NCBI RefSeq assembly: GCF_030908405.1
Contig: NZ_CP133089.1
Span: forward strand, 744,001-808,000
Origin: Aminobacterium sp. MB27-C1
GTDB taxonomy: Bacteria > Synergistota > Synergistia > Synergistales > Aminobacteriaceae
Direction of reading: 5' to 3'
DNA: 64,000 nt
In this document: positions 951-17,495 of the stretch, one piece after another
Position numbering within the stretch: the first letter of the stretch is position 1
How the letters are laid out: each line of letters begins with the position of its first letter
Made by a program: the position numbers and the translations under genes
Notes under the pieces: generated by a model
What the model saw: the letters and a program-made list of their open reading frames with translations, nothing else
Databases searched by the model: none
Told to the model about the DNA's origin: nothing

Positions 951-1002
951 CGAGTAGCGAATCTAAAAACAAAACGTTGCCAATAGCGAGTTAGCTAAAA
1001 CG

Positions 1003-1046
1003 AAAGCGGAGCCTGGCTGAGACTTTATGCCACCTCCGCTTTTTTT
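1003..1046 (+). terminator. Rho-independent terminator after the lyase gene
   Basis: The arms AAAGCGGAG and CTCCGCT are separated by about 22 bases and followed by a run of T. It lies 50 bases past the lyase stop codon and marks the left edge of the AT-rich island. Confidence 0.75.
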
Positions 1047-1137
1047 GTACAAGTAGTGTCGAATGTTTTATGATTTTAATGTTCTTGTTAACATTTCAGA
1101 TTCAGGAGCGATATTGAAGCGGAGCGGAGTAACTTAA

Positions 1138-1326
1138 TTCCTCCTGAAAAATTACCAAAATCACAAATATTTCCTTCATTTGCTTTGGGTGGACGAAAAG
1201 TATAAGTGGGAGGCTGTTAAGCATTTTCAAGACAATTGGGATATTAACGCTACTGATTTTGTCTCTATGCTTGAGGCGTCAACGGCAAAAACCGAGGAAA
1301 AACTTCAATCGGCGATTATAAACTAG
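1138..1326 (+). pseudogene. Remnant of a McrB-like protein N-terminus
   Basis: An open stretch with no good start or ribosome site reads LLWVDEKYKWEAVKHFQDNW and continues for about 28 residues to a stop. From memory, this resembles the N-terminal segment that precedes the GTPase/AAA domain in McrB-type restriction proteins. The rest of such a gene is absent: no Walker motif follows in any frame. I read it as a fragment left by decay or deletion. The family match is by recognition only and needs a profile search. Confidence 0.4.
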
Positions 1327-1767
1327 TCTTTACAGCACTTTATAACATGAAGTATTTTATCGAAACATTGATTGCAAAGATCAAAAGACAGGCGGCAGGT
1401 TACAAATGACGGTCGTTTTAATAATGCTGTTAGACTGTCATCTTTTCGTACTCAGATGCTTTGACAGGAAAAAGCGTTTTGGTGCATGTACATATACTCA
1501 TACACAGCACACTACATCTGCTGCTCATTGTCTAATATTCATCCGTCATAAAATATTCTATAAGATTAATTTTTTAGTTTCGATAGTTATATACTAAGTT
1601 CAAATATTATGTTAGGCTATGTGCGAAGGGCTTAATGGTTCTTTATATTAAAAATAAGTTTGCACAGAGTTTAGTAAATAATTATTTGAATTTTAAATGA
1701 TTATTGTAATAAATGTAATTTAAATTATAGTTTTTATAGCCCTTCATCTGGGGGGCTTGTCGAAAAA
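1327..1767 (+). other. AT-rich spacer without a supported gene
   Basis: There are short open frames here, one of about 63 codons from 1406, but none has a ribosome site, a recognisable motif or plausible composition. The stretch probably holds the promoter of the helicase-nuclease gene and more decayed sequence. I see no clear repeat. Confidence 0.5.
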
Positions 1768-4700
1768 ATGGGCTATTCTTCACAAACTGCGAATCATAGA
1801 ATGAAACAGCTTTTCAAATATCTAGAAGCACTTAACCAACACAGAAATCCTGCGATTAAGAATGTTGAGGATTATTCGTGGAAATTGTGGATTCAATCTC
1901 TTCCCAAACATCCGAATTTAAAACTTTTAGGAAAATCCACAGATCAATTAGATATGTTCGATTTATATGAGGATGGTAATGATATTGACCTTGAAAATAT
2001 CCTCGTAGTAAAGCGTCCTGAACTGAAATATTGTCCGGCTCCTTCTCAAAGTTTTGAGAGCTGGCTTTATGGGGGATGGGAAAATCCTTTTAAAGAAGTC
2101 CAGATTATAGAAAGTAGACCTAACGAAAAGAATGGGTTTCCTCTCATGTCTAGAGATAGTACAGAAAAAAATGATACGGAATTGGAGTACTTTAATGATA
2201 ATGAAAAAAGGGTTACTGATTATTTAAGCTGGTTGGAAAAAAGAAAAGTCTGGGCAGAAAAAGAAAAGCAAAATCGAAGGACTATGAAGATCTACGAGGA
2301 TCTTTACGATTTATACAGGCTCTTTAAAAGGGAACCTGATCGCTTTGAAATAATTTTAGGTGATGGAGTTATAATTTGGAGTATAGAAGAAGGTCGTTTA
2401 TATCATCCTCTATTGTTACAGCAGGTACAATTACAATTTGATCCTGAAAAAGTAGAGTTTTCCATTTTGCCTTCGGATAAGCCCTCTGAGTTTTATTCCC
2501 AGATTTTTCATTCTAATACTGATGTAGATGCTTTTTCCATAGCGGATGCTATTAAATCAGTGAATGAAGAGCATTTTCATCCTCTTGGAAGAACGGGAGT
2601 AGAAATTTTCCTCAAAAGGTTTATTTCCTCTGTAGTCTCCAATGGTGAATTTATTGAGAATAACGAGTCTTTTCAGTTCAAAGAATATCCACAGATAGTT
2701 AGAAAACCTGTTTTATTCCTTCGTAATAAAGACTTAGGGTTCGCTTCCTGTATTGAGAAGATTCTTGAAAATATTGAGAGAGGAGAAGAACCTTCGAGTT
2801 TTTTCAAAAATATAGTTGGTGTAGATCAAGATGATTGTGTAAACCACTACAATGAAGACTTTTCAAGGAAAGCTATAAAAACTAGTGAAATTCTTTTGGG
2901 CAAAGAAAGTAATGAAGAACAGATGAAAATTGCAGAATCACTAGAGGTCTATGACTCAGTTCTTGTGCAGGGACCTCCGGGTACTGGAAAAAGCCATACT
3001 ATTGCTAATCTTATAGGGCATCTTCTTGCTCAAGGTAAGAGAGTCTTAGTGACAAGTAAAACCTCAAAACCTCTCCGGGTACTTAAAAGACATATAGTTA
3101 AAGAATTACGTTCTTTGGCAGTGAGTGTTTTGCAGGATGATCTTGAAGCTAAGAAGGATCTTGAGTCTTCTGTAAACGAAATTGTTAAAAATCTAACATC
3201 AAAGGATCCTCGAAAATTAATTCAACAAGAAAAAAGACTTATAGAAAATCGAGATAATGTACTATCTGAGTTAAACCGATTCAAAGCACAGTTGATTGAG
3301 GTTCTCCGATCTGAATACACAGAAATTATAATAGATGGTCAGACCTTAAGCCCTTCTGAAGCTGGGAAAAAGATTGCTCAAGGGGTAGATGTACATTCAT
3401 GGCTTCCTGATCCTGATGTATCTGAAAAGACTCTTCCTATTACACAGGAGGAATTTGATTACCTCTTTGAGTTTAATGACAAGATTTCAAAAGAAGAAGA
3501 AACCTTGCTTATGGATCCCTTGCTAGATTTTTCCAAATTGCCTACCCCAGAAGAACTTTTTAAAATGAAAGAAGTTTATGAAAGTTCAAAGCAATTTGTT
3601 CAAGATCCCTTTGATCCTTTATGGGATTCTGAAAGATGTGTTTCTGCCAGAGATATAGAATTGGTGTGGAATTTTGCCCAACAATGTTTAAAAACATTGA
3701 CATTCGGGGATAATTGGCAAAAGGAAGTTCTTTATGACGGCTATCTTGGAGGTAACAGATTACAACCTTGGGAGGATATGATGGAAAAGATAGAATATCT
3801 TTTCCAAAGTCTTAACGAATTGAAGTCTCAGCGGATTCGCCTGAAACCTGAAATAGATTACAAAAAATTAGATTTGCCCAAGGATGAGATAATAAAGGAA
3901 TTAAAAGAAATAGTTGATTATCTTAGTGACAATAGTGGATTATCTTTTTTAAAATTATTTCTTAAGCCAAAATGGAAAAAAATTACAGAAGTTTCAAAGA
4001 TATCTCTAGGGAAACCCCAAAGCAGAGATCATTACATAGCTTTGCTTGCTGAAGTTGAATATGCAATACAAAAAGAGCTACTCATAGATTCTATCGTTGC
4101 CCTTTGTCCAACATTGGTGTTTAGTAGTGAGAAAACGCCAGACGAAGACCTTGCTCACAAACTATATTTCCAAGTCAAGCCAATGATATCAAAATATTTA
4201 TATTGGTATTCTAATGAATTTTCGTCTCTTATTGTTTCCTTGAGAAATTTGGGGTTCAACTGGGAAAGTTTTTGCGATCCTATCCTAGGCTCGGAATCAA
4301 GAGAGGCAGCGATCGACAACCTGAAAGAAAGTCTTGAGAGACTATGTCATCATGTCTTACCTATTAGAATGAAAAAAATTGATAATATTGAAATTTGTCA
4401 AAAATTGGAAAAAATTATCATTTATCTTGAAGAAATGGAATCAGAAAATAACCATTCCTTTATTTGTAATATAAAATCATATCTTAAACATTTTGATGTC
4501 CAAGCTTATGAAGAGTCCATTAATTTACTACAAGAACTTTATCGGATGAAGCCCCTTTATCAAAAGAAGCAGAATATAACAGGAAAAATCACAGGTTATT
4601 CTAAAGAATGGGCAAATCTTGTAAAAAGTCGGAATGGTATATGGGGTAAGAGTCAGCCTCCTGGTGACCTTTTAGAAGCTTGGAAATGGAAAAGAATCTT

Positions 4701-7281
4701 ACTAGAAGTTAAAAGAATAAATAAGACCTCTATTGAAGATATTCAGGATGAAATCGCGTACAGACAAGATGTGTTGAAAGATCTTACCAATAATCTTATT
4801 TCTGTAAAAGCTTGGAGAAGACAGATCGAAAGAACAACCCAAAAAGAAAGAAGCGCCTTAGTTGCATACACTCAGATTATAAAAAAACTGGGCAAAACAG
4901 GAAAAGTTAAAAATGCTGCTGCTTTACTTAGAGATGCTAAAGAGGCTATGAATCAATGTATAAGTGCTGTCCCGGTTTGGATTATGCCTCTTATTAAGGT
5001 AGCTGAATCTTTCGAACCTGGGAGTACTTCTTTTGATGTCGTGATAATAGATGAAGCTAGTCAATGCGATGTAATGGCCTTTATTGCTATATATCTGGGG
5101 AAGAAGTTAGTTATTGTGGGTGATGATCAGCAGGTTAGTCCACTTGCTATTGGGCAGAAGCTAGATATTGTTCGTAAGCTTATGGATCAATACCTTCTGG
5201 ATATTCCTGTTAAATCTCTTTATGATGGCACTGCTAGTATTTACGATATAGCAAAAAGAAATTCTGGGAAAGTTATAGCTTTACGGGAGCATTTTAGAAG
5301 CGTGCCTGAAATCATACAATTTAGCAATAGACTTTCTTACAATGGGAATATCCTTCCTTTGAGGGAATCAAGTAGCACTGATTTAAAACCCCCAGTTATT
5401 CCCTTCAGAGTCAATAACGGATATTGTGATGATAACAAGGTTAATTCAGTAGAGGCTAAGCAAATTGCATCTATCATGGCGGTATGTACAAAACTTCCCG
5501 AATATGAAGAGAAAACGATGGGTGTTATTTCTCTTTATGGAGATGCACAGACTTTGGAAATTGAAAAATACTTGAAAGAGTACATTCCTGAAGATGTTTA
5601 TGAAAAACATGAAATCTTGTGCGGTTCTCCGTACCATTTCCAGGGTGATGAAAGAGATGTTATTTTCTTATCACTCGTTTACAGTTCATTAGAAAATCCT
5701 CCACATAAAATGCTTAGCGGAGGACAACAGAATATGCATAAGAAAAGGTTCAATGTCGCGGCAAGTAGAGCCAAGGACCAGATGTGGGTAGTGTATTCTT
5801 TAGATCCTTATACGGATCTAAAACCTGGTGATTTAAGGAGACAACTTATTGAATATTCCTTGGATCCTAGTGCATGGGAAATAACGTTTGAAGATCTTGA
5901 AAAACGAACAGAATCGCCCTTCGAAAGAGAAGTTTTGCAGGACCTTGTCATTAGCGGTTACGACATAATACCTCAATGGAAAGTAGGTGCCTATCGAATA
6001 GATATGGTGGTACAGAGCAACGGGAAAAAAGTAGCTATAGAGTGTGATGGAGAAAAATTCCATACGCCTGAAACTTTACATGAAGATCTTGCAAGACAGT
6101 CTATATTAGAAAGGCTTGGTTGGACTTTTATCAGGATAAGAGGTAGTGCTTTTTATAGTGATAAGGTTAAAGCTATGAAAAAAGTGAAGGATAAATTGGC
6201 AAGTTTAGGTATCGAAAGAACTATGTCTTTCCAAAATTCAAAGTCTAGTAACGATCCTTTAGCATATAAACGAGAAGTTAGTGAAATAGCTAGATTAGCA
6301 TCTATGATCCAAAGTGGAGAAAAAAATATAGCGATACCTGAAAGTTTGCTCGAAACACCTGTAGCTTTTCAGAAGAAAGAAAGTTTTATTCTTGAAGTAA
6401 GCCCTGCTGTATCAACAGATACTGTTGATACAGCAGGTATTGTTTTAGATAAGCAAAAGATAAAAGATAATGATCTATTATTTTATCCTGAGCATCAAGA
6501 AGAAAATCAAAGTTATGAGAAAGAGTTTGTTACTAGTAAAAAATCTTATTCAGCTAATTCTAAGAACAATGTAGAAGAGTCATCTCAACGAGAGTATGAA
6601 GGCGAATTTCTGAATTTTGAAAATGTGAAAAAGACTTTGGATCAGGACGATGAAAAAACTACGAAAATATTAAATGAAATTGATCAAATTCCAAGAGTTA
6701 GTCAAGAAGCGTTTGAAAAAGGCTTTCAGGATAATCAAGAGGTATCTGAGGGTACTTTTGAATATGAGACCTCTGATTTATCTGAAAAAGATACTAATAA
6801 TGCGTTACAAGTGAGTGAAGAGAAGTCAAAAATAAATAATAAGATTAGTGTAGAAAATAAAAATGATCCAATAAAAGACGAGGGATTGAATTTCTTTTCT
6901 GAAGAAACGGAAAAACATCTAGCTAAGAAAAATAACGAAAAAACGGAGGATGCATCTGTAGAAGAGTTAAAAAAACAGAAATTGAAATCTTCCAATTCGA
7001 AAAATGCCAGAATTAAAAAGGAAAAAGCGAGCAACCCTAAGGTTGATTCTTTTGAATCTCAGCTCAAAAATGAGAATCCTGATTTCTGGTTTGCGTTAGC
7101 ACATTGGGCTAAAGAAAATAATAAGTTGAATAATAAAGAAAGGCATTTTGTTTTTCAAGTCGGTAGGTTGATATCCAATAAGTGGCTTCTTTCTGAAAAA
7201 CAGGAAAAATGGGCTAATAGTATTTATGAAAAATGTTTAGACGACGGTTTTATTTTTGAAGATATCCAAAAGAAGAATTAG
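1768..7281 (+). CDS. Giant SF1 helicase with C-terminal Vsr/DUF559-like nuclease
   Basis: A 1837-residue protein that I expect acts on nucleic acid in the cytosol, plausibly in phage or plasmid defence. Seen: Walker A GPPGTGKSHT at about residue 402; a long helical insert; Walker B IIDEASQCD at about 1092 followed by GDDQQ; motif VI VAASRAKDQ at about 1330. This is the AAA_11/AAA_12 (Upf1-like) layout. A nuclease-like domain follows at about 1383-1485 (SPFEREVLQDL, then D1412 and ECDGEKFH near 1424), matching PD-(D/E)xK proteins of the Vsr/DUF559/MTES_1575 type. After that comes about 270 residues of Lys/Glu/Ser/Asn-rich linker and a short folded tail (about 1765-1837). A GGGGGG run precedes the ATG at moderate spacing. 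Base composition is clearly more AT-rich than the flanks, suggesting transfer. It stands alone with its own leader. Family is sure; a defence role is inferred. Confidence 0.85.
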   Translation: MGYSSQTANHRMKQLFKYLEALNQHRNPAIKNVEDYSWKLWIQSLPKHPNLKLLGKSTDQLDMFDLYEDGNDIDLENILVVKRPELKYCPAPSQSFESWLYGGWENPFKEVQIIESRPNEKNGFPLMSRDSTEKNDTELEYFNDNEKRVTDYLSWLEKRKVWAEKEKQNRRTMKIYEDLYDLYRLFKREPDRFEIILGDGVIIWSIEEGRLYHPLLLQQVQLQFDPEKVEFSILPSDKPSEFYSQIFHSNTDVDAFSIADAIKSVNEEHFHPLGRTGVEIFLKRFISSVVSNGEFIENNESFQFKEYPQIVRKPVLFLRNKDLGFASCIEKILENIERGEEPSSFFKNIVGVDQDDCVNHYNEDFSRKAIKTSEILLGKESNEEQMKIAESLEVYDSVLVQGPPGTGKSHTIANLIGHLLAQGKRVLVTSKTSKPLRVLKRHIVKELRSLAVSVLQDDLEAKKDLESSVNEIVKNLTSKDPRKLIQQEKRLIENRDNVLSELNRFKAQLIEVLRSEYTEIIIDGQTLSPSEAGKKIAQGVDVHSWLPDPDVSEKTLPITQEEFDYLFEFNDKISKEEETLLMDPLLDFSKLPTPEELFKMKEVYESSKQFVQDPFDPLWDSERCVSARDIELVWNFAQQCLKTLTFGDNWQKEVLYDGYLGGNRLQPWEDMMEKIEYLFQSLNELKSQRIRLKPEIDYKKLDLPKDEIIKELKEIVDYLSDNSGLSFLKLFLKPKWKKITEVSKISLGKPQSRDHYIALLAEVEYAIQKELLIDSIVALCPTLVFSSEKTPDEDLAHKLYFQVKPMISKYLYWYSNEFSSLIVSLRNLGFNWESFCDPILGSESREAAIDNLKESLERLCHHVLPIRMKKIDNIEICQKLEKIIIYLEEMESENNHSFICNIKSYLKHFDVQAYEESINLLQELYRMKPLYQKKQNITGKITGYSKEWANLVKSRNGIWGKSQPPGDLLEAWKWKRILLEVKRINKTSIEDIQDEIAYRQDVLKDLTNNLISVKAWRRQIERTTQKERSALVAYTQIIKKLGKTGKVKNAAALLRDAKEAMNQCISAVPVWIMPLIKVAESFEPGSTSFDVVIIDEASQCDVMAFIAIYLGKKLVIVGDDQQVSPLAIGQKLDIVRKLMDQYLLDIPVKSLYDGTASIYDIAKRNSGKVIALREHFRSVPEIIQFSNRLSYNGNILPLRESSSTDLKPPVIPFRVNNGYCDDNKVNSVEAKQIASIMAVCTKLPEYEEKTMGVISLYGDAQTLEIEKYLKEYIPEDVYEKHEILCGSPYHFQGDERDVIFLSLVYSSLENPPHKMLSGGQQNMHKKRFNVAASRAKDQMWVVYSLDPYTDLKPGDLRRQLIEYSLDPSAWEITFEDLEKRTESPFEREVLQDLVISGYDIIPQWKVGAYRIDMVVQSNGKKVAIECDGEKFHTPETLHEDLARQSILERLGWTFIRIRGSAFYSDKVKAMKKVKDKLASLGIERTMSFQNSKSSNDPLAYKREVSEIARLASMIQSGEKNIAIPESLLETPVAFQKKESFILEVSPAVSTDTVDTAGIVLDKQKIKDNDLLFYPEHQEENQSYEKEFVTSKKSYSANSKNNVEESSQREYEGEFLNFENVKKTLDQDDEKTTKILNEIDQIPRVSQEAFEKGFQDNQEVSEGTFEYETSDLSEKDTNNALQVSEEKSKINNKISVENKNDPIKDEGLNFFSEETEKHLAKKNNEKTEDASVEELKKQKLKSSNSKNARIKKEKASNPKVDSFESQLKNENPDFWFALAHWAKENNKLNNKERHFVFQVGRLISNKWLLSEKQEKWANSIYEKCLDDGFIFEDIQKKN
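6403..6437 (+). repeat. Perfect 15-bp inverted repeat inside the helicase gene
   Basis: The arms CCTGCTGTATCAACA and TGTTGATACAGCAGG match exactly around a 5-base loop GATAC. The repeat sits at the start of the low-complexity linker, is read through in frame (encoding PAVSTDTVDTAG) and leaves the reading frame intact. It could be a small inserted palindrome or a hairpin in the mRNA. Confidence 0.9.
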
Positions 7282-7719
7282 AAAGGATTCTCTCTAGAAT
7301 AGGCGAAACAGATAATTGTAATTAAGTTTCATTAAAAAATTACGTTATTTTGTTTATTGCTGGTGTAGTTACATAACTTAACAAAGAGTCAGGATAAACA
7401 TCATAATACGCTAGACTATAAGTCTTTAATAACTTATAGCATGATACGAGTATCATACTATAAGCAAAGAAGAGATATCAGCACAAGTTTAGCGCAAAGT
7501 TGTGACTAAACTTGGAAAGTATTGGAATTACTGGATGGAATTGATGGTTTTTCTGACTGAAAAGTTCCCAACTGCTCGTGTCTTTCTCTGAATTTTGCGG
7601 TTGATGAACCTAGAGAGGTGTGGGCTCTTACACTTCTTCAGTTCTGATAGAAATATATGAAAGATATTGTACGTTATCATATATATACATAAGCATTAGA
7701 AAAAAGGTGATCCCTCACT
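7282..7719 (+). other. Intergenic stretch with a cluster of inverted repeats
   Basis: About 440 AT-rich bases with no supported gene. Three inverted repeats lie close together: CTATAAGT/ACTTATAG at 7416-7439, ATGATA/TATCAT at 7441-7456, and CAAGTTTA/TAAACTTG at 7484-7514. ACTATAAG also recurs directly. They may be operator sites or the remains of an element. No toxin-like frame is found upstream of the HigA-like gene. Confidence 0.55.
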
Positions 7720-8040
7720 ATGAGTAATAGAAAAGAAAAAAATATGTGCAAAATAGAATACGACAATATATTGGCTTTCCACCCAGGTTTTTATCTCAAA
7801 GAACTCATTGAAGATATGGAAATTACACAGGATGAATTTGCGAAACGTCTGGACATCTCTTCAAAACATTTAAGTGAGATTTTGTCGGGTAAAGCGTCTG
7901 TGCATGAAGATGTAGCAATGAAACTAGCAACTGTGTTGGGGACTAGTGCCGGTTTATGGCTCAATTTGCAAGCAAAATACAATGAGAAATGTGAAGTTAT
8001 ACGATCTGATCGAGCAGAATTGACGTCGCCCCAAATATAA
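7720..8040 (+). CDS. HigA-type XRE antitoxin, orphan
   Basis: A 106-residue DNA-binding protein of the HigA/VapI family. The segment HPGFYLKELIEDMEITQDEF at about 26-45 is the usual entry to the helix-turn-helix, followed by RLDISSKHLSEILSGK. The family normally neutralises a HigB-type RNase and represses its own operon. AAAAAGGTGATC lies at good distance before the ATG; an internal ATG at codon 9 is also possible. No HigB-like toxin is seen on either side: upstream is the repeat cluster, downstream the unrelated DUF488 gene converges 3 bases away. It may be a solitary regulator, the survivor of a lost pair, or act in trans. Confidence 0.85.
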   Translation: MSNRKEKNMCKIEYDNILAFHPGFYLKELIEDMEITQDEFAKRLDISSKHLSEILSGKASVHEDVAMKLATVLGTSAGLWLNLQAKYNEKCEVIRSDRAELTSPQI

Positions 8041-8043
8041 GCT

Positions 8044-8400
8044 TTATTCTCCGTTCATGCTTTCCAAATACTCTTTCAGTACCGTTGCGTTGTTCTGCTC
8101 ACTATTCTTAGAACTGTAAAGTAGCGTCACTTTGAGAGTTTTTGCCCTCTCTGCAAGGGTTCGAAGCTCCCCAAGGTGTGTTTCCAACTCTTCCCGGTAC
8201 TGCTTTTCAAACTCAGCCCAAGCGAGTTCCCCGCCATGAAAGAGCTTTCGAAGCTCGTTTGATGGAGCAACTTCCTTCATCCATTCATCTACTTTTGCCT
8301 TCTCTTTTGATAATCCTCTAGGCCATAGGCGATCGACTAAAATGCGATATCCATCGCTTGAATCCGCTTCTTCGTAAATTCGTTTCAGCGTTATAGGCAT
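8044..8400 (-). CDS. DUF488 family protein (YeaO-like)
   Basis: A 118-residue protein of the DUF488 family; its biochemical role is not established. The family signature is clear: ILVDRLWPRGLSKEKA near the N-terminus, an Asp/Trp-rich middle (DEWMKEVAPS) and LLYSSKN near the C-terminus. The ATG at 8398-8400 is chosen because GGAGGG lies just before it; a frame extending 7 codons further has no such site. It is transcribed leftward, converging on the HigA-like gene. Composition matches the core genome, so the island ends here. Confidence 0.85.
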   Translation of the reverse strand: MPITLKRIYEEADSSDGYRILVDRLWPRGLSKEKAKVDEWMKEVAPSNELRKLFHGGELAWAEFEKQYREELETHLGELRTLAERAKTLKVTLLYSSKNSEQNNATVLKEYLESMNGE

Positions 8401-8528
8401 CTTTTCCCTCCTCGTTGGCAAGAACTCTAAGCCGCCGGCAGTAATGGCAGGTGGGCGAACCCGATTGCCTTGATACTAACGGCGTTAAATCTTGCTGCCT
8501 GCACAGCCTCTATACGTTTCGTTTTTCG

Positions 8529-10973
8529 TCACTCTCCAATTCTCACCGGAATCCACGCAAGGCCAAAGGCTTTGATGTTAATGTCCGTATTCTTAGGGCG
8601 CACCAGAGATTCCCGCGTCGCCTCTTTATATTTCTCGATACCTCTCGTGAGAATATCCATCTCTTCGTTCAGTTGTGCTTCAAGGTCTGTCATTTGATTT
8701 TGTAAAAAGTAGAACCTCTCTTCAGCCCTTGCTACATCCATCTTTTCTTTTTTGAGTCGTCCCGCTTTGGAAAGGGCAGATCCCATTCGATAGGTGGATG
8801 TCGCCGTGAGGCTTTTTCTGCCGAACAATGCGCTTGCTATAGCCGATCCGAAAGATATGACTGTCTCCATATTTCGGTGTTTTGCCTGTTCGCTTTCTCG
8901 ATCGATGGCCTGTTCCGCCGCGATGAGTTGCTTTTGTAGAGTTGCCATTTTGCTGTCGTATTTTTTCCGTAGTTTTTCGATTTCAATATCCCTTTTTTCT
9001 CGCAATGCTTCGTTAATTCGTATGGCAAAGTCGGCTTCACTTTCTTCAGGCAGGCTGACTATTTTCAAAGGTTGATTCTTATAGATGACGAGAGGTTTGT
9101 TCTGCCTGATCCATCGTTGAAAGGCTTTTCCCCATGTAGTGTAATTGCGTGGCTCAGCCAGAGCTTTGGGGAGTTCGAAAAAAGGTATGCCATCAGCGGC
9201 CGTTGTCCGTAGCTCTTCTGGAGCGATGTCGAGGTCGAAACCCCTTTCCCAATCAGGGTCGAAGGTGCCAGGTGCTTCCGCCCCCAGTGTGTAAGTTATG
9301 TGAGTGTCGATTTCGAGGCTGGTGCTGGAGTAGTAGATGTCGCCGATTCCTAGAATAAAGGGTTTATATGCCCAGGAACCGCGCCCCGTCGCAGTATCGA
9401 CGAAGAATTCTGGAATATCGGGCGATATGGCTGGTTTGACTGACGCTAGTGATATTGCCGGCGCTGCTGGCTCTGTCGGTGTCGCGGCAGGTCTCACCAG
9501 CGCTTCTTCAGCCGCCGTTAACGTTTCCAGCCCTGGCTCTGTCAGTGCCGCCGGCCTCGGTACCCATTCTCCCATCAGTGTTTTAATCTGCTCCCGTGAC
9601 AGGGGCCCTCGCAGATACGACATGGCCCAGCGGCTCGTAAAGATCGACGGGCTGTTTTCATGAATGTTATTGAGAAGAAACTCTCTTTTTTTCAGCCCTG
9701 TTATGGCCTTGTCGAGGAATTCCCGATCGAACCCCGATATACTTTCGAGTCGTTCCATTCCTTCGAGAACGCGGTCTTTGTCCCGTTGTGTTTGAAGTCG
9801 GCCGATAAACCACGTTCCAATATTTGAAAGTCCCTTGTAGTCCAGATCCACGGGGTTTTGTGTAGCTAAAACGACTCCAATTCCGAAGGCTCTCGCCTGT
9901 TTCAACAACGTCAAAAGTGGTTTCTTCGAAGCGGGTTCTTTCACTGGAGGCATATAGCCGAACACCTCATCTATATAGAGGATGGCCCGAAGGCTGGGCG
10001 TTCCCGTCTGACTCCTCATCCAGCCTACGATTTCGTTGAGCAGCATAGAGACAAAAAACATCCTTTCGTTCTCTGAAAGGTGTGAGATCGTGAAAATAGA
10101 TGCTCGCGGTTTTCCTGTCGCAGTATGAAGAAAGCGACCTATGTCTAGGGGGTCTCCTGTCATCCACTGATTGAAAGCGGGAGACGCAAGAATCTGGTTG
10201 AGGGCCAGGGCGAGCTTGAAACGTTCGTTTGGCGGGTAAAAGGTGTCTGTAGGCATAATGCCAATATGGTCGAAAGGAGGAGTCTGTACGCCGTTTATAA
10301 TGGATGGAAGGTCGATATCATGCCCTTTTTGCCAACTTTCTTCGAATATCTTCGAAATCAGCAGGTGTTCCCTTCCGGAAATGGGGTCAGATTCAATGTT
10401 CAGAAGAGAGAGGAGCGTTGTTGTGGTGCTTTGAACCTTCTCCAGAAAGAGGTCGCGGTCGTTTCTCACTTTTTCAGAAGGGCATCTGAAGGAACCGAGC
10501 ACGTTCACTTTCACTCCTGCATTGCTTCCTGGAGTGTAGATGGTGAAATCGATGGATTCACGCATCTTTCTGATTCTTGCTCCGTTAATTCCCCAGCTTG
10601 CGAGTCCCTTCGTCCATTTTTCAGCCTCTTTTAACGCATAGTCCGAGACAGAAAGTCCCTCGGCTGTGGCGTCTTCTCTGTTGATCCATGGAAGAAAATC
10701 TTCGCCCTTTTGCTCTGGGAAAGAGAGAAGGAGGTTGGTGATGTCTCCTTTGGGGTCGATGGCGAGAATTGGAATGTTATCCATGAGGGCTTCTTCAAGA
10801 AGAGCCATGCCCAGCCCCGTTTTGCCGCTTCCCGTCATACCGATGATCATTCCGTGGGTTGTGAGGTCTTTGGAATCGTAGAGTACAAGCGTGTCACTCT
10901 TTTTCCCTGTCGCGGGATCTATCTCTTTACCCAGGTAAAACTTCCCCATGAGTTCGAAGTTTTCCATCATCAT
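8529..10973 (-). CDS. HerA/FtsK-type ATP-binding protein with C-terminal coiled coil
   Basis: An 814-residue P-loop ATPase of the HerA/DUF87 class, hexameric motors that usually move DNA. Seen: Walker A GMTGSGKTG at about residues 45-53, Walker B ILYIDEVFGYMPP, and the sensor segment VVLATQNPVDLDYKGLSNIG. A Pro/Ala-rich linker (about 480-530), a beta-rich part, and then a Lys/Glu-rich coiled coil (about 660-800) follow. AAGGAGGAATGATG precedes the start. No NurA nuclease, SIR2 or other known HerA partner is adjacent; the next gene on the same strand is a K+ channel. Whether it translocates DNA or acts as a scaffolded ATPase cannot be told. Composition is like the core genome. Confidence 0.85.
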   Translation of the reverse strand: MMMENFELMGKFYLGKEIDPATGKKSDTLVLYDSKDLTTHGMIIGMTGSGKTGLGMALLEEALMDNIPILAIDPKGDITNLLLSFPEQKGEDFLPWINREDATAEGLSVSDYALKEAEKWTKGLASWGINGARIRKMRESIDFTIYTPGSNAGVKVNVLGSFRCPSEKVRNDRDLFLEKVQSTTTTLLSLLNIESDPISGREHLLISKIFEESWQKGHDIDLPSIINGVQTPPFDHIGIMPTDTFYPPNERFKLALALNQILASPAFNQWMTGDPLDIGRFLHTATGKPRASIFTISHLSENERMFFVSMLLNEIVGWMRSQTGTPSLRAILYIDEVFGYMPPVKEPASKKPLLTLLKQARAFGIGVVLATQNPVDLDYKGLSNIGTWFIGRLQTQRDKDRVLEGMERLESISGFDREFLDKAITGLKKREFLLNNIHENSPSIFTSRWAMSYLRGPLSREQIKTLMGEWVPRPAALTEPGLETLTAAEEALVRPAATPTEPAAPAISLASVKPAISPDIPEFFVDTATGRGSWAYKPFILGIGDIYYSSTSLEIDTHITYTLGAEAPGTFDPDWERGFDLDIAPEELRTTAADGIPFFELPKALAEPRNYTTWGKAFQRWIRQNKPLVIYKNQPLKIVSLPEESEADFAIRINEALREKRDIEIEKLRKKYDSKMATLQKQLIAAEQAIDRESEQAKHRNMETVISFGSAIASALFGRKSLTATSTYRMGSALSKAGRLKKEKMDVARAEERFYFLQNQMTDLEAQLNEEMDILTRGIEKYKEATRESLVRPKNTDINIKAFGLAWIPVRIGE

Positions 10974-11115
10974 TCCTCCTTGCTGCTAGCATTCTCGACT
11001 GTACTGTTAAAATAAAACGTGCCGCGTGGCGTCGCTGATTTACTTCGCTACCATGCCGCTATGCTGCTTTCCAGCCTCACAGCACGCCACCGTATTCATA
11101 GTGTCGCTATGCCGT

Positions 11116-11919
11116 TTATTTTTCACCGCCCGCGCTTTCCTCAGATTTCAAACTGACAAGAACACGGCAAATATCTTGCACCTCTGGCAACGTGAGATTG
11201 TCGAATTTTTCAAGCCGTGATAAGGCGAGTGTGACAAATTCCTGCTTGGAATTTCGCTCTTCTTCCTGTTTGGGTGAGATAAAGTAAGAGGCGATGGTTC
11301 CTGTAAGAATGCTGATAAAGCCTATGCCTACCAACATGAGAATCGTTGCGATAATACGTCCTCCCATTGTTGTAGGGGCGATGTCTCCATATCCGACTGT
11401 TGTTGCCGTAACGAACGACCACCAGAGAGCATCGTAAAAATCCATGTTTTCAAAGTTGCGAATAGCGACGGCTCCCAATATAACCACAGAGGCCGTAATA
11501 AAAAGAACGTACTGGAAGTGATGATATTTGAGAAAGCGGGAAAGATAGTTATGTGTTCTTCCAAAGTAGGCAATGAGCCTTACAAATCGCACCGAATGAG
11601 GCGATAAGGAAATCCGCACAAACCTGAAGAGGCGAAAGGCACGAATTCCTTTAAAGAGGGCGTTGAAGGGAAGGATCGCTACAAGCTCTATAATGTGGTT
11701 TTTGACGTAGACTTTTCTGTCGCGCGAGAAAACGAGATGATAAAAATAGTCGCTGGCAAAAATTCCCCAGATCAGAAAATCAATGCCGTCGAGCACTTGC
11801 TCTTGGTCGAGAGAAATTTCCGCACGTTCCTGAATAATAAGCAAAGCGACAGAGAGAATGGCCAGTACGCCGAGAGAAATTTCGTAAAGGGATACACCTT
11901 TCAACCTGTTGGTATTCAT
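11116..11919 (-). CDS. Voltage-gated-type potassium channel
   Basis: A 267-residue inner-membrane ion channel of the six-helix Kv/KvAP type. Seen: a positively charged S4-like stretch (FRLFRFVRISLSPHSVRFVR), then a pore loop with the K+ selectivity filter TTVGYGD followed by a final helix. A short charged cytosolic tail closes the protein. The family conducts K+ and sets membrane potential. It lies upstream, in transcription order, of the HerA-like gene with a 142-base gap, so co-transcription is possible. No ligand-binding domain is attached. Confidence 0.9.
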   Translation of the reverse strand: MNTNRLKGVSLYEISLGVLAILSVALLIIQERAEISLDQEQVLDGIDFLIWGIFASDYFYHLVFSRDRKVYVKNHIIELVAILPFNALFKGIRAFRLFRFVRISLSPHSVRFVRLIAYFGRTHNYLSRFLKYHHFQYVLFITASVVILGAVAIRNFENMDFYDALWWSFVTATTVGYGDIAPTTMGGRIIATILMLVGIGFISILTGTIASYFISPKQEEERNSKQEFVTLALSRLEKFDNLTLPEVQDICRVLVSLKSEESAGGEK

Positions 11920-12014
11920 GATAAGCAGCCGCCTTTATACATTTCTTTGTACATCATAATTTCCAACACCTCGACTTATTTTTTGCATGTTTCCGGCATG
12001 GTAGAACCGGCCAA

Positions 12015-12605
12015 TTACGGGCGTAGAATTTCGAAACGGTTATACCCTGATTCCTCATCTATTCCCACATAATGGAAACCGCACTTCGTCAGTACTTTGC
12101 ACGATGGAAGATTGTCTGGCAAGGCGTGGGCTACCACTTTGAAAGTGCGACTATCTCTGAAGGCATTTGCAATAAGAGCCTTGGCTATCTCTGTAGCGTA
12201 CCCCTTATTTTGCCATTTCCCCATGACTGAAAAGCCAATTTCGACGTCACCTTTTGGCGTCGGAGGCCCAAAATAGCCGGCTGATCCGATCAGAGTTGAG
12301 GGGCGATCTGGGGTTTTAGGAAGAAGGGCATACCAGACATACCATCCAGAGACAGGTAGTCCACCATCTTCAAGGCGAGCCTTAAAATATTCTTGTGCGT
12401 TTCGGTCATATTCGCCAGGCGGCCAGTTGCTGCTAATTTCAGCGTTTAGAAGCATGGCAAGCTTGGCATTGCTTTCAAGCTCCGCATTGATGTGGTCACA
12501 CGTTGCGGCTATGAGTACCAGGCGATTGGTCTTAAGTTTATAGCGTTCGAATTTTTCGGAGCCTTGGGTTTTTTTGAAGCCGACGTAATCTTCGAAGTCT
12601 GGCAT
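12015..12605 (-). CDS. GNAT acetyltransferase, RimJ/RimL type
   Basis: A 196-residue acyl-CoA-dependent N-acetyltransferase of the RimJ/RimL branch. Seen: KTNRLVLIAATCDH as the first strand region, VEIGFSVMGKWQNKGYATE as the motif-A acetyl-CoA site, and ALPDNLPSCKVLTKCGF as the conserved C-terminal Asn/Ser/GF element. Substrates in this family range from ribosomal protein N-termini to amino acids and small amines, and none can be picked here. GGGAGGCGAG lies before the ATG. Same strand as the channel and ATPase genes downstream. Confidence 0.85.
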   Translation of the reverse strand: MPDFEDYVGFKKTQGSEKFERYKLKTNRLVLIAATCDHINAELESNAKLAMLLNAEISSNWPPGEYDRNAQEYFKARLEDGGLPVSGWYVWYALLPKTPDRPSTLIGSAGYFGPPTPKGDVEIGFSVMGKWQNKGYATEIAKALIANAFRDSRTFKVVAHALPDNLPSCKVLTKCGFHYVGIDEESGYNRFEILRP

Positions 12606-12664
12606 TTATTCTCGCCTCCCTTTACATTTTATATTAAAGCCTGCATAAAAAAATTACTATATGG

Positions 12665-12762
12665 CGATAAAATTTTTTGCACCGTACGAAGGAACCGCGA
12701 AACGAACAACCTAAAGTTGGAGCTTGGAAAACGATAAAATTTTGCTCCGTACGAAGGAACCG
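12665..12762 (+). repeat. Pair of about 32-bp direct repeats
   Basis: A block reading CGATAAAATTTT, then TGC and CCGTACGAAGGAACCG, occurs at 12665-12697 and again at 12732-12762 with one small indel and one mismatch, 67 bases apart. It lies in the divergent region between the acetyltransferase and the barrel operon and may be paired regulator sites. Confidence 0.7.
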
Positions 12763-12787
12763 TTACCTCATTTAAAGCAAAGAACAT

Positions 12788-12817
12788 TTGCCTAATAGAA
12801 TTCCTAGATGGTATTCT
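12788..12817 (+). promoter_or_regulatory. Possible promoter of the barrel-ABC operon
   Basis: TTGCCT and TATTCT are separated by 18 bases, about 90 bases before the first ATG of the operon and just past the direct repeats. The match to consensus is moderate. Confidence 0.35.
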
Positions 12818-12904
12818 TATATAAACAATTCGTCATTTCATCTCGTCCAAAGTTAACCTTGCAAGATGTTTTGCTTCTAAAGATGCAGGAGGTTAACCAT
12901 AGGC

Positions 12905-14137
12905 ATGAGTATAACGGTGTCTCGTCAGAAAACATGTAAGGCCGGAATGTGTGCGCCCGGATTTATGATTTTGGGAACTCTCTTTGTATTATTGGGCCTT
13001 TGCATATGGGGGCCTGCTGTAAGCCATGCCGCCACATTCACACACTCGGGGCAGGTTTCACTCTGGGGGGCATACAACGACGACGAAGACGGTTCGTTGG
13101 GAATCCGATACATTCCCGAAATAACAATAGATTTTGGCACCGAAAAAGACGCCGCCACAAGCGTTGCCACAGATGCGCAAACAGCCCTATCCCTTGACGC
13201 TCTTGTCTCTTTCAACATCCGCACCTTTACAACCTTCGATGCCTTCAAAGAGTTCGAAGACAACTTTCATACCGATTTGTATCGTTCCTGGGTGCGACTC
13301 TCCGGCGAGAGGTATGAAGTTCGTCTCGGCCTTCAACGAATCAATTTTGGACCGGCGCGGATCCTTCGTTCCTTAAAATGGTTCGACCAGATAGACCCCC
13401 GCGACCCTTTGAGCCTGACCGACGGAGTCTACGCCCTTCTCGGGCGCTATTATTTCCCCAACAATTCGAATATATGGGTGTGGGGCTTATATGGAAACGA
13501 CGATCTCAAGGGAATGGAAATTTTTAAAACAGATGAAGACAGACCGGAGTTTGGCTTGCGATATCAAATCCCAGTGGCTAATGGAGAGATAGCCTTCACA
13601 TATCACAACAGGCGTGTCGATCGGGAGTGGTGGAACTCTCGAAGTTCAAAGGTTCCGGCTTTTCACAACGAAGGAACCTTACTCGACGGTCTGGAACAGC
13701 GTTACGCCCTCGATGGAAGTTTCGACGTGGGAATCGGGCTCTGGTTCGAATTCGTTATGAGCCACCTTAAAAGAGACTCCAACAACTCTCTCTACACCTC
13801 ATATCTCACCCTGGGAGCCGACTACACCTTCGATATTGCCTCCGGCGTCCACGTTCTGGCAGAGCATTTTATTGAAGCATCTGGCAGCGACGTATGGAGC
13901 CATGACACCGACTCTGAAATATCCGCCCTTTCCATCGACTTCAGCACCGGCATTCTCGACACTGTAACTATCCTGACCTACTACGACTGGCAAGAAAAGG
14001 ATCTCTATCCCAACGTAAGCTGGCAGCGTACATACGATGATTGGCTCATTAACGTAACGGCTTTTCACAACGGTGACGATGGCCATAGCGTTTATTCCGG
14101 AACCGGGCTCGTCCTCACCCTCGTGTACAACTATTAG
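12905..14137 (+). CDS. Outer-membrane beta-barrel protein of a Lol-like operon
   Basis: A 410-residue exported protein. It has a long signal peptide (hydrophobic stretch about 20-37, ending SHAA) and then alternating amphipathic strands rich in Tyr, Trp, Asp and Gly, closing with LVLTLVYNY. The terminal Tyr is the usual barrel-assembly signal. The segment YEVRLGLQRINFGPARI and the Trp/Asp-rich turns resemble porin-like or alginate-export-like barrels, but I cannot name the family. GGAGG precedes the ATG. It is the first gene of a tight operon with an ABC ATPase, two FtsX-type permeases and a LolA-like protein, so it may be the outer-membrane end of that transport route. Confidence 0.75.
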   Translation: MSITVSRQKTCKAGMCAPGFMILGTLFVLLGLCIWGPAVSHAATFTHSGQVSLWGAYNDDEDGSLGIRYIPEITIDFGTEKDAATSVATDAQTALSLDALVSFNIRTFTTFDAFKEFEDNFHTDLYRSWVRLSGERYEVRLGLQRINFGPARILRSLKWFDQIDPRDPLSLTDGVYALLGRYYFPNNSNIWVWGLYGNDDLKGMEIFKTDEDRPEFGLRYQIPVANGEIAFTYHNRRVDREWWNSRSSKVPAFHNEGTLLDGLEQRYALDGSFDVGIGLWFEFVMSHLKRDSNNSLYTSYLTLGADYTFDIASGVHVLAEHFIEASGSDVWSHDTDSEISALSIDFSTGILDTVTILTYYDWQEKDLYPNVSWQRTYDDWLINVTAFHNGDDGHSVYSGTGLVLTLVYNY

Positions 14138-14153
14138 CGAAGGGGGCCTGTTC

Positions 14154-14852
14154 ATGTCTATAGTAACCATAAAAAATCTGACAAAAAGATACCCCATGGG
14201 CAACCATTTCTTTACTGCCCTGAATAGCGTGACCCTTGAATTCGAAAAGGGAGAATTCTGCGGATTGATTGGTCCCAGCGGATCAGGAAAGACAACCCTC
14301 TTGAACATTATCGGAGCCCTCGACGCTCCATCTGAAGGAAGTATCGTGGTTATTGATAAAAACGTAGAGAGCCTTTCTCAGAAGGAATCCGCGGCGCTGC
14401 GCAACCACCACATTGGTTTTATTTTTCAGACGTACAACCTGTTTCCCGTCTATAGCGTCTATGAAAACATAGAGTTTCCATTGCTGCTTTTGAAGATGCC
14501 CCTTAAGGAGAGACGGCAGAAAGTTTTCGATGCTTTGGAATGGCTGGGATTAACAGACAAGGTGGATTCCAAGCCAGCTCAGCTTTCGGGAGGGGAGTGT
14601 CAAAGGGTGGCAGTGGCCAGGGCTGTAGTGAAGCGGCCTGCCTTGATTTTGGCAGACGAGCCTACGGCCAATCTTGACAGCGAGAATTCCTACAACATTT
14701 TGGAGATGATGGTGCGGCTCAATAAAGAGCTCGAAACCACCTTTATATTTGCGACCCATGACGAGAAGGTCATGAAATACCTGAGGCGTAAAATCCACCT
14801 CTTCGATGGGCACGTGGCGAAAGACGAAATTCCATCTAAAGGAGCGGATTGA
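14154..14852 (+). CDS. ABC transporter ATPase, LolD/MacB type
   Basis: A 232-residue cytosolic ATPase. Seen: GPSGSGKTTLLN (Walker A), QTYNLFPVYSVYENI (Q-loop), LSGGECQRVAVARA (signature; Glu in place of the common Gln), LILADEPTANLD (Walker B) and FATHDEKV (switch His). It matches the LolD/MacB/FtsE branch, which powers FtsX-type permeases by mechanical motion rather than a transport channel. The ATG at 14154 is chosen for GAAGGGGG just before it; a longer frame overlaps the barrel gene. It ends one base before the next gene starts. Confidence 0.9.
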   Translation: MSIVTIKNLTKRYPMGNHFFTALNSVTLEFEKGEFCGLIGPSGSGKTTLLNIIGALDAPSEGSIVVIDKNVESLSQKESAALRNHHIGFIFQTYNLFPVYSVYENIEFPLLLLKMPLKERRQKVFDALEWLGLTDKVDSKPAQLSGGECQRVAVARAVVKRPALILADEPTANLDSENSYNILEMMVRLNKELETTFIFATHDEKVMKYLRRKIHLFDGHVAKDEIPSKGAD

Positions 14853-14853
14853 C

Positions 14854-16224
14854 ATGCTCGGTGTCGCTGCCAAGTTAGCCTATCGCAATATAAAAGAAGC
14901 AGGGCTCCGCACATGGCTCAATGTTGCCGTGCTTGCGCTGACCTTCGTCGTGATCGTCGGATTCCAGGGGCTATATACGGGTGTGCTCGCCCAAACATCG
15001 AGAGCAATGATTGAAGACGAAATTGCAGGTGGCCAATATTGGCACAAAGATTACGATCCATACGATGCCCTCTCTATTGATGACGGTCATGGCGTTATTC
15101 CCTCAAGTCTCGTTTCTTTGATTGAAGAGAAAAAAGCGACCCCGATCCTCATTCGCCAGGCCACAATCTATCCTGCCGGACGAGCGCAGTCCGCTCAGCT
15201 TCGGGGAATTGATCCCGCCCAGGCCATTCTCAATATTCCTACGCGCTCTCTTCTCGTTTCAGGCGAGGTTGGTAATGCCAGTGTTTCCGACAGTTTCGGA
15301 GATACGGCAGCTGCTTTCGGCACAAACGGTGTCAAGAGTGCGACCAAGGCCGCGATCCCCAGTAGTGCCGTCGCCTCGACCAGTATCGCCGTCGCTCTTC
15401 CCTCTGGCGCCAATCGCGGTACCAGCGCCCCGGCCGGCACCAACGCCGCCGCAATTTACGAACTGCCCATACTTATCGGAAAGAGAATGGCGAAGAGCAA
15501 AAATCTCGCTATAGGTGACTATCTCACCATACGCTGGAGGGATTCCTACGGAACCTTTGACGCCACCGAAGGACGGATTGTACACATCATGGATACTCAG
15601 GTTTCGTCTATCGATAACGGAATTATCTGGGTTCCCATTGAGGCCTTGCAGCACATGACACTCTTGAAAAACGAAGCGACCCTTGTAGTCGTGAGCCCCG
15701 AGGCCAAACACTACATTACCTCTCAAGAGTGGCCTTTTAAAACTCAGGCCTTCTTGATGAGAGACCTCACGGAAATGATAAAAACAAAGAGAATTTCGAG
15801 CGTCATTATCTATTTTATTCTGCTCTTTCTGGGCATGCTCGCCATCTTCGACACACAGGTCCTCTCTCTTTTCAGACGAAGAAAGGAGATTGGCACACTA
15901 ATCGCCCTCGGCATGACGAGAATGCAGGTTGTTTTTGTCTTTACGATGGAAGGCATTATTCAGGGAGCCCTCGCCATCGTTGTCGCCCTCATCTTTGGCA
16001 TGCCCCTTTTGACCTATATATCAGAAAAGGGAATTGCCATTCCTCAGATGGTGGAGGGATACGGTTTCGCTCTCTCCGATAAGCTTTTTCCTGTCTACTC
16101 CGTAGAGCTTGTTCTCACGACGATGGCCTTCATTATGGTTGTTGTCACCACAATCAGCTTTCTTCCTTCGAGTAAAATAGCGAGACTCCAGCCCACAGAG
16201 GCGCTGAAAGGAAAAATATCATGA
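14854..16224 (+). CDS. FtsX/LolC-type ABC permease 1, with low-complexity insert
   Basis: A 456-residue inner-membrane permease of the FtsX/MacB/LolC class: one N-terminal helix, a large periplasmic domain, then three C-terminal helices starting near residue 310 (IIYFILLFLGMLAIFDTQVL), including the RRKEIGTLIALGMT coupling motif. An unusual Ala/Ser/Thr/Gly-rich stretch at about residues 149-200 interrupts the periplasmic domain; the DNA there is more GC-rich than around it. GGAG precedes the ATG at 14854, which follows the ATPase stop by one base. It should form a heterodimer with the next permease. The cargo is unknown; lipoprotein or lipid is the likely class. Confidence 0.85.
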   Translation: MLGVAAKLAYRNIKEAGLRTWLNVAVLALTFVVIVGFQGLYTGVLAQTSRAMIEDEIAGGQYWHKDYDPYDALSIDDGHGVIPSSLVSLIEEKKATPILIRQATIYPAGRAQSAQLRGIDPAQAILNIPTRSLLVSGEVGNASVSDSFGDTAAAFGTNGVKSATKAAIPSSAVASTSIAVALPSGANRGTSAPAGTNAAAIYELPILIGKRMAKSKNLAIGDYLTIRWRDSYGTFDATEGRIVHIMDTQVSSIDNGIIWVPIEALQHMTLLKNEATLVVVSPEAKHYITSQEWPFKTQAFLMRDLTEMIKTKRISSVIIYFILLFLGMLAIFDTQVLSLFRRRKEIGTLIALGMTRMQVVFVFTMEGIIQGALAIVVALIFGMPLLTYISEKGIAIPQMVEGYGFALSDKLFPVYSVELVLTTMAFIMVVVTTISFLPSSKIARLQPTEALKGKIS

Positions 16225-17495
16225 TTACGTTCATTCTGAAAGGATTGATTCGAGACCGTTCACGCAGCCTCTTTCCCGTGCTCATGGTGAGTGCCGGTGT
16301 CTTCCTTACGGTTTTTCTCTACTGCTTCATGGAAGGAGCCATGGGCGACCTCATCAGTTCGACGGCAAAATTCGATACGGGCCATGTCAAAGTCATGACC
16401 CAGGCGTATAGAGAGCTTTCCGACCAGGTTCCAAACGATTTGGCGATTATGGAAGCCAACGAACTTCTTATGTGGCTCAAAGAGAATGAAAAAGAGATGA
16501 TCTGGACTCAGCGGATACGTTTTGGCGGGCTCCTTGATGTTCCTGATGAAAGGGGAGAGACTCTTGTTCAGGCTCCCGTCGTGGGGCTTGGAATCGATCT
16601 CTTCAGCGAAGACACGCCAGAAAAAGACCTCTTTAACATTGAAAGAGCCATGGTACGCGGTTCCTACCCCAAACAGCCAAACGAAATATTGTTAAGCGAC
16701 GAATTTGCTCAAAAAATGAATCTTCACATCGGAAGCACAGTAACGCTCATTAGTTCGACTATGTATGGCTCCATGGCGACGTACAATTTTAAGGTTGCCG
16801 GAACCGTCTATTTTGGCATGATTCCCATGGATAGGGGCACAATAATTGCAGATATCAGAGACGTGCAAAATGCCCTCGATATGGTTGACAGCGCTGGTGA
16901 AATTGTGGGGTATACGAGCGACATGCTCTATTCCGATACGCGAATGGGTAATGTCGCGCGGCGATTCAATGAAGTATTTACTAAGTCTGATGACGAATTC
17001 TCTCCTGTAATGGTGCCTCTCGGCCAGCAGAGTAATTTCGAGGAATATCTGAATTACGCCGAAGCCATGGGGGCCGTTATCGTAGGTATTTTTGTCTTGG
17101 CCATGTCGATTGTCCTCTGGAACTCGGGCTTGATGAACGGATTGCGACGGTACGGAGAGATAGGCGTTCGTCTTGCCATGGGGGAATCCAAGGGGCGACT
17201 CTATCGTTCCATGATCTTTGAATCGTGCTTTATAGGAATTGCCGGTTCCATCTTGGGAACCGCTTTAGGGCTCGCCGTTTCGTACTATATGCAATACACG
17301 GGCATAGATTTTGGGGATATGATGCCGAAATCAAGCATGCTCATATCAAACGTCATACGGGCACAGGTTACGCCGGCAAGTTATTTTATCGGCTTTTTTC
17401 CGGGAGTGTTCGCCTCAGTAACAGGAGCCATGTTTGCAGGAATAGGCATCTATAAGAGGCAGACAGCCCAACTGATTAAGGAGTTGGAAGTATGA
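16221..17495 (+). CDS. FtsX/LolE-type ABC permease 2
   Basis: A 424-residue partner permease with the same plan: an N-terminal helix (residues 12-36), a periplasmic domain, and three helices near the C-terminus (from about 286), with the coupling segment YGEIGVRLAMGESKGRLY. It overlaps the stop of permease 1 by four bases (ATGA), so the two are translationally coupled. Unlike permease 1 it has no low-complexity insert. By analogy with LolC-LolE, the pair would extract a lipid-anchored or lipidic substrate from the outer leaflet of the inner membrane and pass it to a periplasmic carrier. Confidence 0.85.
   Translation: MITFILKGLIRDRSRSLFPVLMVSAGVFLTVFLYCFMEGAMGDLISSTAKFDTGHVKVMTQAYRELSDQVPNDLAIMEANELLMWLKENEKEMIWTQRIRFGGLLDVPDERGETLVQAPVVGLGIDLFSEDTPEKDLFNIERAMVRGSYPKQPNEILLSDEFAQKMNLHIGSTVTLISSTMYGSMATYNFKVAGTVYFGMIPMDRGTIIADIRDVQNALDMVDSAGEIVGYTSDMLYSDTRMGNVARRFNEVFTKSDDEFSPVMVPLGQQSNFEEYLNYAEAMGAVIVGIFVLAMSIVLWNSGLMNGLRRYGEIGVRLAMGESKGRLYRSMIFESCFIGIAGSILGTALGLAVSYYMQYTGIDFGDMMPKSSMLISNVIRAQVTPASYFIGFFPGVFASVTGAMFAGIGIYKRQTAQLIKELEV

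Follow-up and report, generated by a model that had tools for sequence, protein, structure and literature searches.

The locus and its variable slot

The window analysed here, a stretch of 64,000 nucleotides from the genome of Aminobacterium sp. MB27-C1, contains near its left end a gene for a giant protein that combines a helicase with a nuclease (Table 1). The gene is present as a single copy in the 2.43-Mb host genome. An initial annotation, made from the DNA sequence, had described it as more AT-rich than its flanks and as accompanied by a decayed McrB-like fragment and an orphan antitoxin, and these observations were borne out. The GC content is 32-38% over positions 1001-8000 vs. 44% over positions 1-1000 and 44-52% over positions 8001-18000. 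The McrB-like remnant, which shows 60% identity over 42 amino acids to a Butyrivibrio ATPase encoded directly beside mcrC, is closed by a stop codon and lies ~440 bp upstream of the helicase-nuclease gene. Downstream, an antitoxin of the HigA family was identified, and no toxin gene was recognised beside it.

The gene occupies a slot that is bordered on the right by a DUF488 gene. Beside the orthologue of this gene in one sister species (G002), the slot contains a gene for a type IIG restriction-modification (RM) enzyme (1880 bits) and the Gabija genes gajA (495 bits) and gajB (342 bits), together with an open reading frame (ORF) for an SNF2-type helicase (L116 46-9826). Neither the type IIG RM enzyme nor Gabija is found in the same slot of another sister species (G001). 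The slot is delimited with less certainty on the left than on the right, because the distance to the flanking PEP mutase gene is different in G001 and a close orthologue of that gene was not found in G002. Beside the slot, an ORF for a HerA-like ATPase (positions 8529-10973) is kept in both sister species with 77-85% identity and, therefore, probably belongs to the stable backbone.

Table 1. Features of the helicase-nuclease locus (positions in the window; residues refer to the 1837-aa protein).
Feature	Position	Strand	Basis or remark
Decayed McrB N-terminal fragment	1138..1326 (match 1186-1311)	+	Sequence match
Helicase-nuclease ORF with linker and tail	1768..7281	+	Complete, 1837 aa, no internal stops
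Family-specific N-terminal region, residues 1-386	1768..2925	+	Conserved in 66-70 sequences
SF1 Upf1-like motor including insertion, residues 382-1345	2911..5802	+	Pfam, alignment
Walker A VLVQGPPGT, residues 398-406	2959..2985	+	Alignment
Large insertion separating Walker A from Walker B, about residues 500-990	3265..4737	+	Alignment
Walker B/motif II DEAS, residues 1095-1098 (DEASQ 1095-1099)	5050..5061	+	Invariant in 86/86
MTES_1575 Vsr-like PD-(D/E)XK nuclease, residues 1385-1477	5920..6198	+	Pfam, alignment
Charged low-complexity linker, ~275 residues, about 1490-1764	6235..7059	+	Translation
Perfect 16-bp inverted repeat with 3-nt loop in linker coding sequence	6403..6437	+	Unique in genome
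Orphan C-terminal tail domain, predicted all-helical, residues 1765-1837	7060..7278	+	Predicted structure
Orphan HigA-family antitoxin	7720..8040	+	TIGR02607, 76 bits, cut-off 47.7
DUF488 gene bordering the variable slot	8044..8421	-	Orthologue in G002 beside RM IIG and Gabija

Architecture of the protein

Pfam recognised AAA_11 and AAA_12, i.e., an SF1 motor, in the protein, and among PDB sequences, this motor is closest to Upf1/NAM7 and Sen1. The two RecA1 motifs, Walker A and DEASQ, are ~690 residues apart, a distance that is mainly taken up by a large insertion without a meaningful Pfam match, which is presumably helical. The nuclease domain matches MTES_1575 with 97 bits (Pfam cut-off 38) and DUF559 with 26.5 bits. 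MTES_1575 is a Vsr-like nuclease with a restriction-endonuclease fold, and the corresponding residues in the window protein are E1386, D1412, E1425, D1427, and Q1444. Pfam and the translation thus agree with the earlier description of an SF1 Upf1-like motor fused to a Vsr/DUF559-like nuclease, a linker, and a small C-terminal domain. The inverted repeat in the linker coding sequence is followed by a T-rich stretch and has a DNA fold z-score of -6.8; it may lead to a truncated product or be a fold-back mutation itself.

An AlphaFold model of residues 1-386, built with 66 sequences, reached a pLDDT of 86.5 and contains a 43-residue helix (residues 146-188), followed by long strands (residues 193-235) and helices. 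By its topology, the region might correspond to the stalk and the 1B β-barrel of Upf1-type helicases. This is a guess, since Foldseek revealed nothing significant in the PDB, the best match of the model being Upf1 itself (E=0.09, TM 0.09).

Distribution and conservation of the family

Relatives were collected by an alignment-based scan of genome contigs, from which the best 80 of at least 530 candidates were taken as the family sample; a single-sequence scan of the same kind of material, in contrast, gave no match. Most of these best 80 span residues ~5-1482, with 29-40% identity. The N-terminal domain, the motor, and the nuclease are common to at least 80 relatives, which represent more than 12 phyla, among them Acidobacteriota, Planctomycetota, Bacillota, Myxococcota, Chloroflexota, Nitrospirota, Pseudomonadota, Fusobacteriota, and Verrucomicrobiota. 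When plasmids were searched with tblastn, relatives in Acetoanaerobium and Fusobacteria spanned residues 9-1482, and shorter matches were found in Variovorax, Streptomyces, Acinetobacter, and others. Within the phylum of the host, only three of 188 genomes, including that of the window itself, match at E<=1e-30. The distribution is patchy within the phylum, yet spread over more than a dozen phyla.

The helicase motifs are almost invariant across 83-86 sequences. Among 85 aligned sequences, D1412 is kept in 82, E1425 in 76, D1427 in 84, and E1386 in 79. Loss of the nuclease active site across the family, which the initial annotation had named as an argument against a defence role, was not seen.

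C-terminal tails and the PC4/YdbC partner

The region after the nuclease differs between family members: many stop 35-75 residues past the nuclease, and others continue with long linkers and with domains of various kinds. In 17 of 86 members, the tail is formed by an unnamed domain with the signature IDNR...GGLWV...KPAWW. The C-terminal domains of GreA/GreB are found in the tails of two relatives (L022 and L048) and DUF3320 in that of another (L059); below the cut-offs, there are a weak match to the tudor domain of PcrA/UvrD (L084) and winged-helix-like matches (L036 and L061). The tail of the window protein (approximately residues 1765-1837; pLDDT 77 for the single-sequence prediction) did not resemble any of these domains in the searches made, and it had no match in plasmids, phages, PDB sequences, or, as judged with Foldseek, PDB folds. 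Among 61 related genomes, it gave one other hit only, in a phage portal-like ORF (E=0.03), which was taken as chance. By comparison of the sequences, the tail is a swappable part rather than a constant element of the architecture.

The initial annotation had called the gene stand-alone. This holds for the window gene itself, near which a search for a PC4 gene found none, but not for the whole family, since in 10 of 86 loci the helicase gene has, on its own strand and at distances from -163 to +84 bp, a neighboring gene for a PC4/YdbC ssDNA-binding protein. In one clade, this neighbor lies upstream of the helicase gene, in others downstream. The host genome does contain one PC4/YdbC gene, far away from the window gene (G000:C1:1702908-1703054; L144 6888-7133). 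Such genes are present in only four of the 61 genomes related to that of the window, and the co-occurrence of PC4 and the helicase in the host is not significant on its own. Both the swapping of tails between members and the adjacent PC4/YdbC gene look like new features of the family.

Further genes adjoin other relatives. For two relatives on Streptomyces plasmids, a near-identical hypothetical protein of 271 amino acids is encoded a few bases downstream in each case (L016 12169-12984; L140 12068-12883), possibly as a partner gene in this clade. In Variovorax, a small upstream gene for a protein of 65-66 amino acids with an Arc/CopG-like look (L018 7390-7587; L139 7303-7503) shares 4 bp with the start of the helicase gene.

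Genomic neighborhoods of the relatives

BREX, RM, Gabija, CRISPR, and other defense genes are found in the neighborhoods of the relatives. On plasmid p3ABAYE of Acinetobacter baumannii AYE, the relative directly follows brxL of a BREX operon, and in Sphingobium, it directly follows a type III RM pair of methyltransferase and restriction genes. BREX-type neighbors are also present at three further loci (L030, L045, and L056), and a type I RM system is located several genes from the relative in Fusobacteria ZRK30. Repeated co-location with defense genes, here with BREX, type III RM, and type I RM systems, was the support that the initial annotation had asked for, and one conserved place among housekeeping genes, its counter-argument, was not seen, the relatives being found on plasmids and beside BREX and RM genes.

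PADLOC models gave 72 hits at E<=1e-20 among 150 ORFs near the relatives and 68 among 150 ORFs at 6.5-9.5 kb, vs. 10 among 144 ORFs from unrelated genome stretches; these figures count model hits rather than genes, and the baseline stretches were drawn from relatives of the host instead of from the individual genomes of the helicase-nuclease relatives. As the near neighbors are no richer in defense genes than those 6.5-9.5 kb away, the link is one with defense-rich regions and not with one fixed partner. McrB was rejected as a regular partner, since an McrB-like neighbor was found in only two of 86 relatives (L045 and L076).

Relationship to named systems

Three named models resemble the window protein. 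The anti-phage protein Hhe (NF042953; PADLOC Hhe) is likewise a giant single protein with an SF1 motor and a Vsr-like nuclease. The window protein reaches 170 bits, where the equivalog cut-off is 2000, with the best match within 982-1497, and other family members score 136-155 bits. DUF4011, the N-terminal domain of Hhe, was not detected by Pfam in the whole protein or in residues 1-381. The best NCBIfam match, the anti-phage protein ProA (NF058533), on which a literature search found no paper, shares the motor-nuclease core and gives 198 bits vs. an equivalog cut-off of 1500, with the best stretch starting at residue 1001. The best PADLOC match, the candidate PDC-S37, has the same order of motor and nuclease and gives 212 bits, with the best stretch at model positions 897-1356 of 1550; a full-length match of 1332 bits to this model is found in a genome of the same bacterial family as the host (L023). 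Membership in these three groups was rejected, as the scores are a small fraction of those of members or of the cut-offs. Other relatives score low as well. The protein may work in a similar way but is, by the tests run, not a member. With only weak cross-hits in PADLOC and NCBIfam, the earlier statement that the exact architecture corresponds to no named system can be maintained. Nothing useful was found in the literature on this exact helicase-nuclease family, and neither a BREX survey (PMC12839542) nor a paper on Acinetobacter BREX (PMC9122589) was found to mention it under the terms tried.

Other likenesses come from published descriptions. CnuH of type III-B CoCoNuT systems is a direct fusion of a Vsr-like nuclease to a UPF1-like SF1 motor, in which a helical insertion follows Walker A; these systems, which are predicted to act on RNA, combine the helicase-Vsr fusion with a coiled-coil protein and with partners of the McrB/McrC type (PMC11090510). 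The motor, the insertion after Walker A, and the nuclease of the window protein match this description, but an intact McrB/McrC partner is lacking, with an McrB remnant in the window and the rare McrB neighbors in relatives mentioned above. An architecture with an SF-I helicase, the Vsr-like MTES_1575 nuclease, and a C-terminal wHTH/DUF3320 within a single protein has been described (Anantharaman 2013, PMC3710099). Unlike the family here, it has HEPN and transglutaminase domains, and DUF3320 is present in one tested relative but not in the window protein. Hna is a single-gene helicase-nuclease that is triggered by phage SSB, and Nhi is thought to work likewise (PMC13381803, PMC12904381). Both are similar to the window gene as single-gene helicase-nuclease defenses, but the analogy is one of mechanism only: Hna has an SF2 motor, unlike the SF1 motor here, and neither protein surfaced as a relative.

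Function and possible mechanism

The searches brought up no direct relative whose function has been tested. The window protein shares the general properties of single-protein helicase-nuclease defenses, i.e., both active sites are intact within one ORF and there is an association with defense genes. As its relatives in many phyla are found among known anti-virus genes, it is probably a single-gene phage defense. The most telling context for this reading is the slot in G002 with its type IIG RM enzyme and Gabija. The initial proposal of a candidate defense gene thereby gains support, from the defense contexts of the relatives and the conserved catalytic residues. We consider it likely that the protein represents an unnamed family of single-protein helicase-nucleases directed against phages and mobile elements, in which the motor would load on ssDNA of the invader and the nuclease would cut.

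The motor is expected to load on single-stranded nucleic acid that the invader exposes, with ssDNA of replication or transcription intermediates as the most likely form, and to translocate along the single strand at the expense of ATP, after which the nuclease would cleave the invader DNA. The motor and nuclease steps are deduced from the domain families, whereas the choice of substrate is a proposal, as are the following steps, which draw on context and analogy. In uninfected cells, the N-terminal part of the protein and its long insertion may keep the nuclease restrained, and activation may require an infection-specific single-stranded intermediate or protein, comparable to the phage SSB in the case of Hna. 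The variable tail or, in some members, the PC4/YdbC partner could provide recruitment or a trigger and thus set specificity. The PC4 partners and the variety of tails are suggestive of an SSB-like trigger, without being proof for the window gene, and the absence of an adjacent PC4 gene and the unplaced tail of this gene are points against the reading.

The main rival to a DNA target is an RNA target with the same defense role, where the motor, as in CoCoNuT systems, would bring the nuclease to transcripts of the invader or the host. Upf1-like motors often act on RNA, which counts against the DNA reading, and Upf1/NAM7 and Sen1 are the closest PDB sequences. Also the GreA/GreB and tudor-like tails of relatives would fit, as would the likeness to CnuH of type III-B systems, given their predicted action on RNA (PMC11090510). 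Against this stand the ssDNA-binding nature of the adjacent partner in 10 loci and the restriction-endonuclease fold of MTES_1575, and we regard an RNA target as unlikely. Less probable still is that the gene remained from an McrBC/CoCoNuT-type multi-gene system after the loss of its McrB partner. The nearby upstream McrB fragment and the pairing of McrB with a helicase-Vsr fusion in type III-B CoCoNuTs (PMC11090510) would be explained, but hardly any relative has an McrB-like neighbor, and with different systems coming and going in the slot, the fragment may be a remnant of something unrelated.

A motor with a nuclease would also suit a DNA-repair enzyme of the DNA2 or RecBCD type without a role in defense, and PC4/YdbC is not itself known as a defense protein. 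Such a role is very improbable, considering the sparse and scattered distribution, the position on an AT-rich insert in a defense slot, the BREX and RM contexts, and the variable tails. Defense by cleavage of invader DNA remains the preferred reading.

Implications for the family

The architecture of N-terminal domain, motor, and nuclease is the property of a large family that has no name so far, and PADLOC 2.0 and NCBIfam 20 detect its genes by weak cross-hits only. The class of helicase-nucleases thereby gains a broad member family. Tentatively, and with less confidence than in the defense role as such, the family might be seen as a constant motor-nuclease chassis with interchangeable C-terminal sensors or a PC4/YdbC partner, in which the tail would pick the infection signal. 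If so, the GreA/GreB-type and tudor-like tails would allow some members to read RNA polymerase, and the orphan helical tail of the window protein would be a new sensor. The family offers a natural experiment, with a conserved effector, swapped tails, and an ssDNA-binding partner in some members, and the way in which such enzymes discriminate between invader and host becomes testable via domain swaps.
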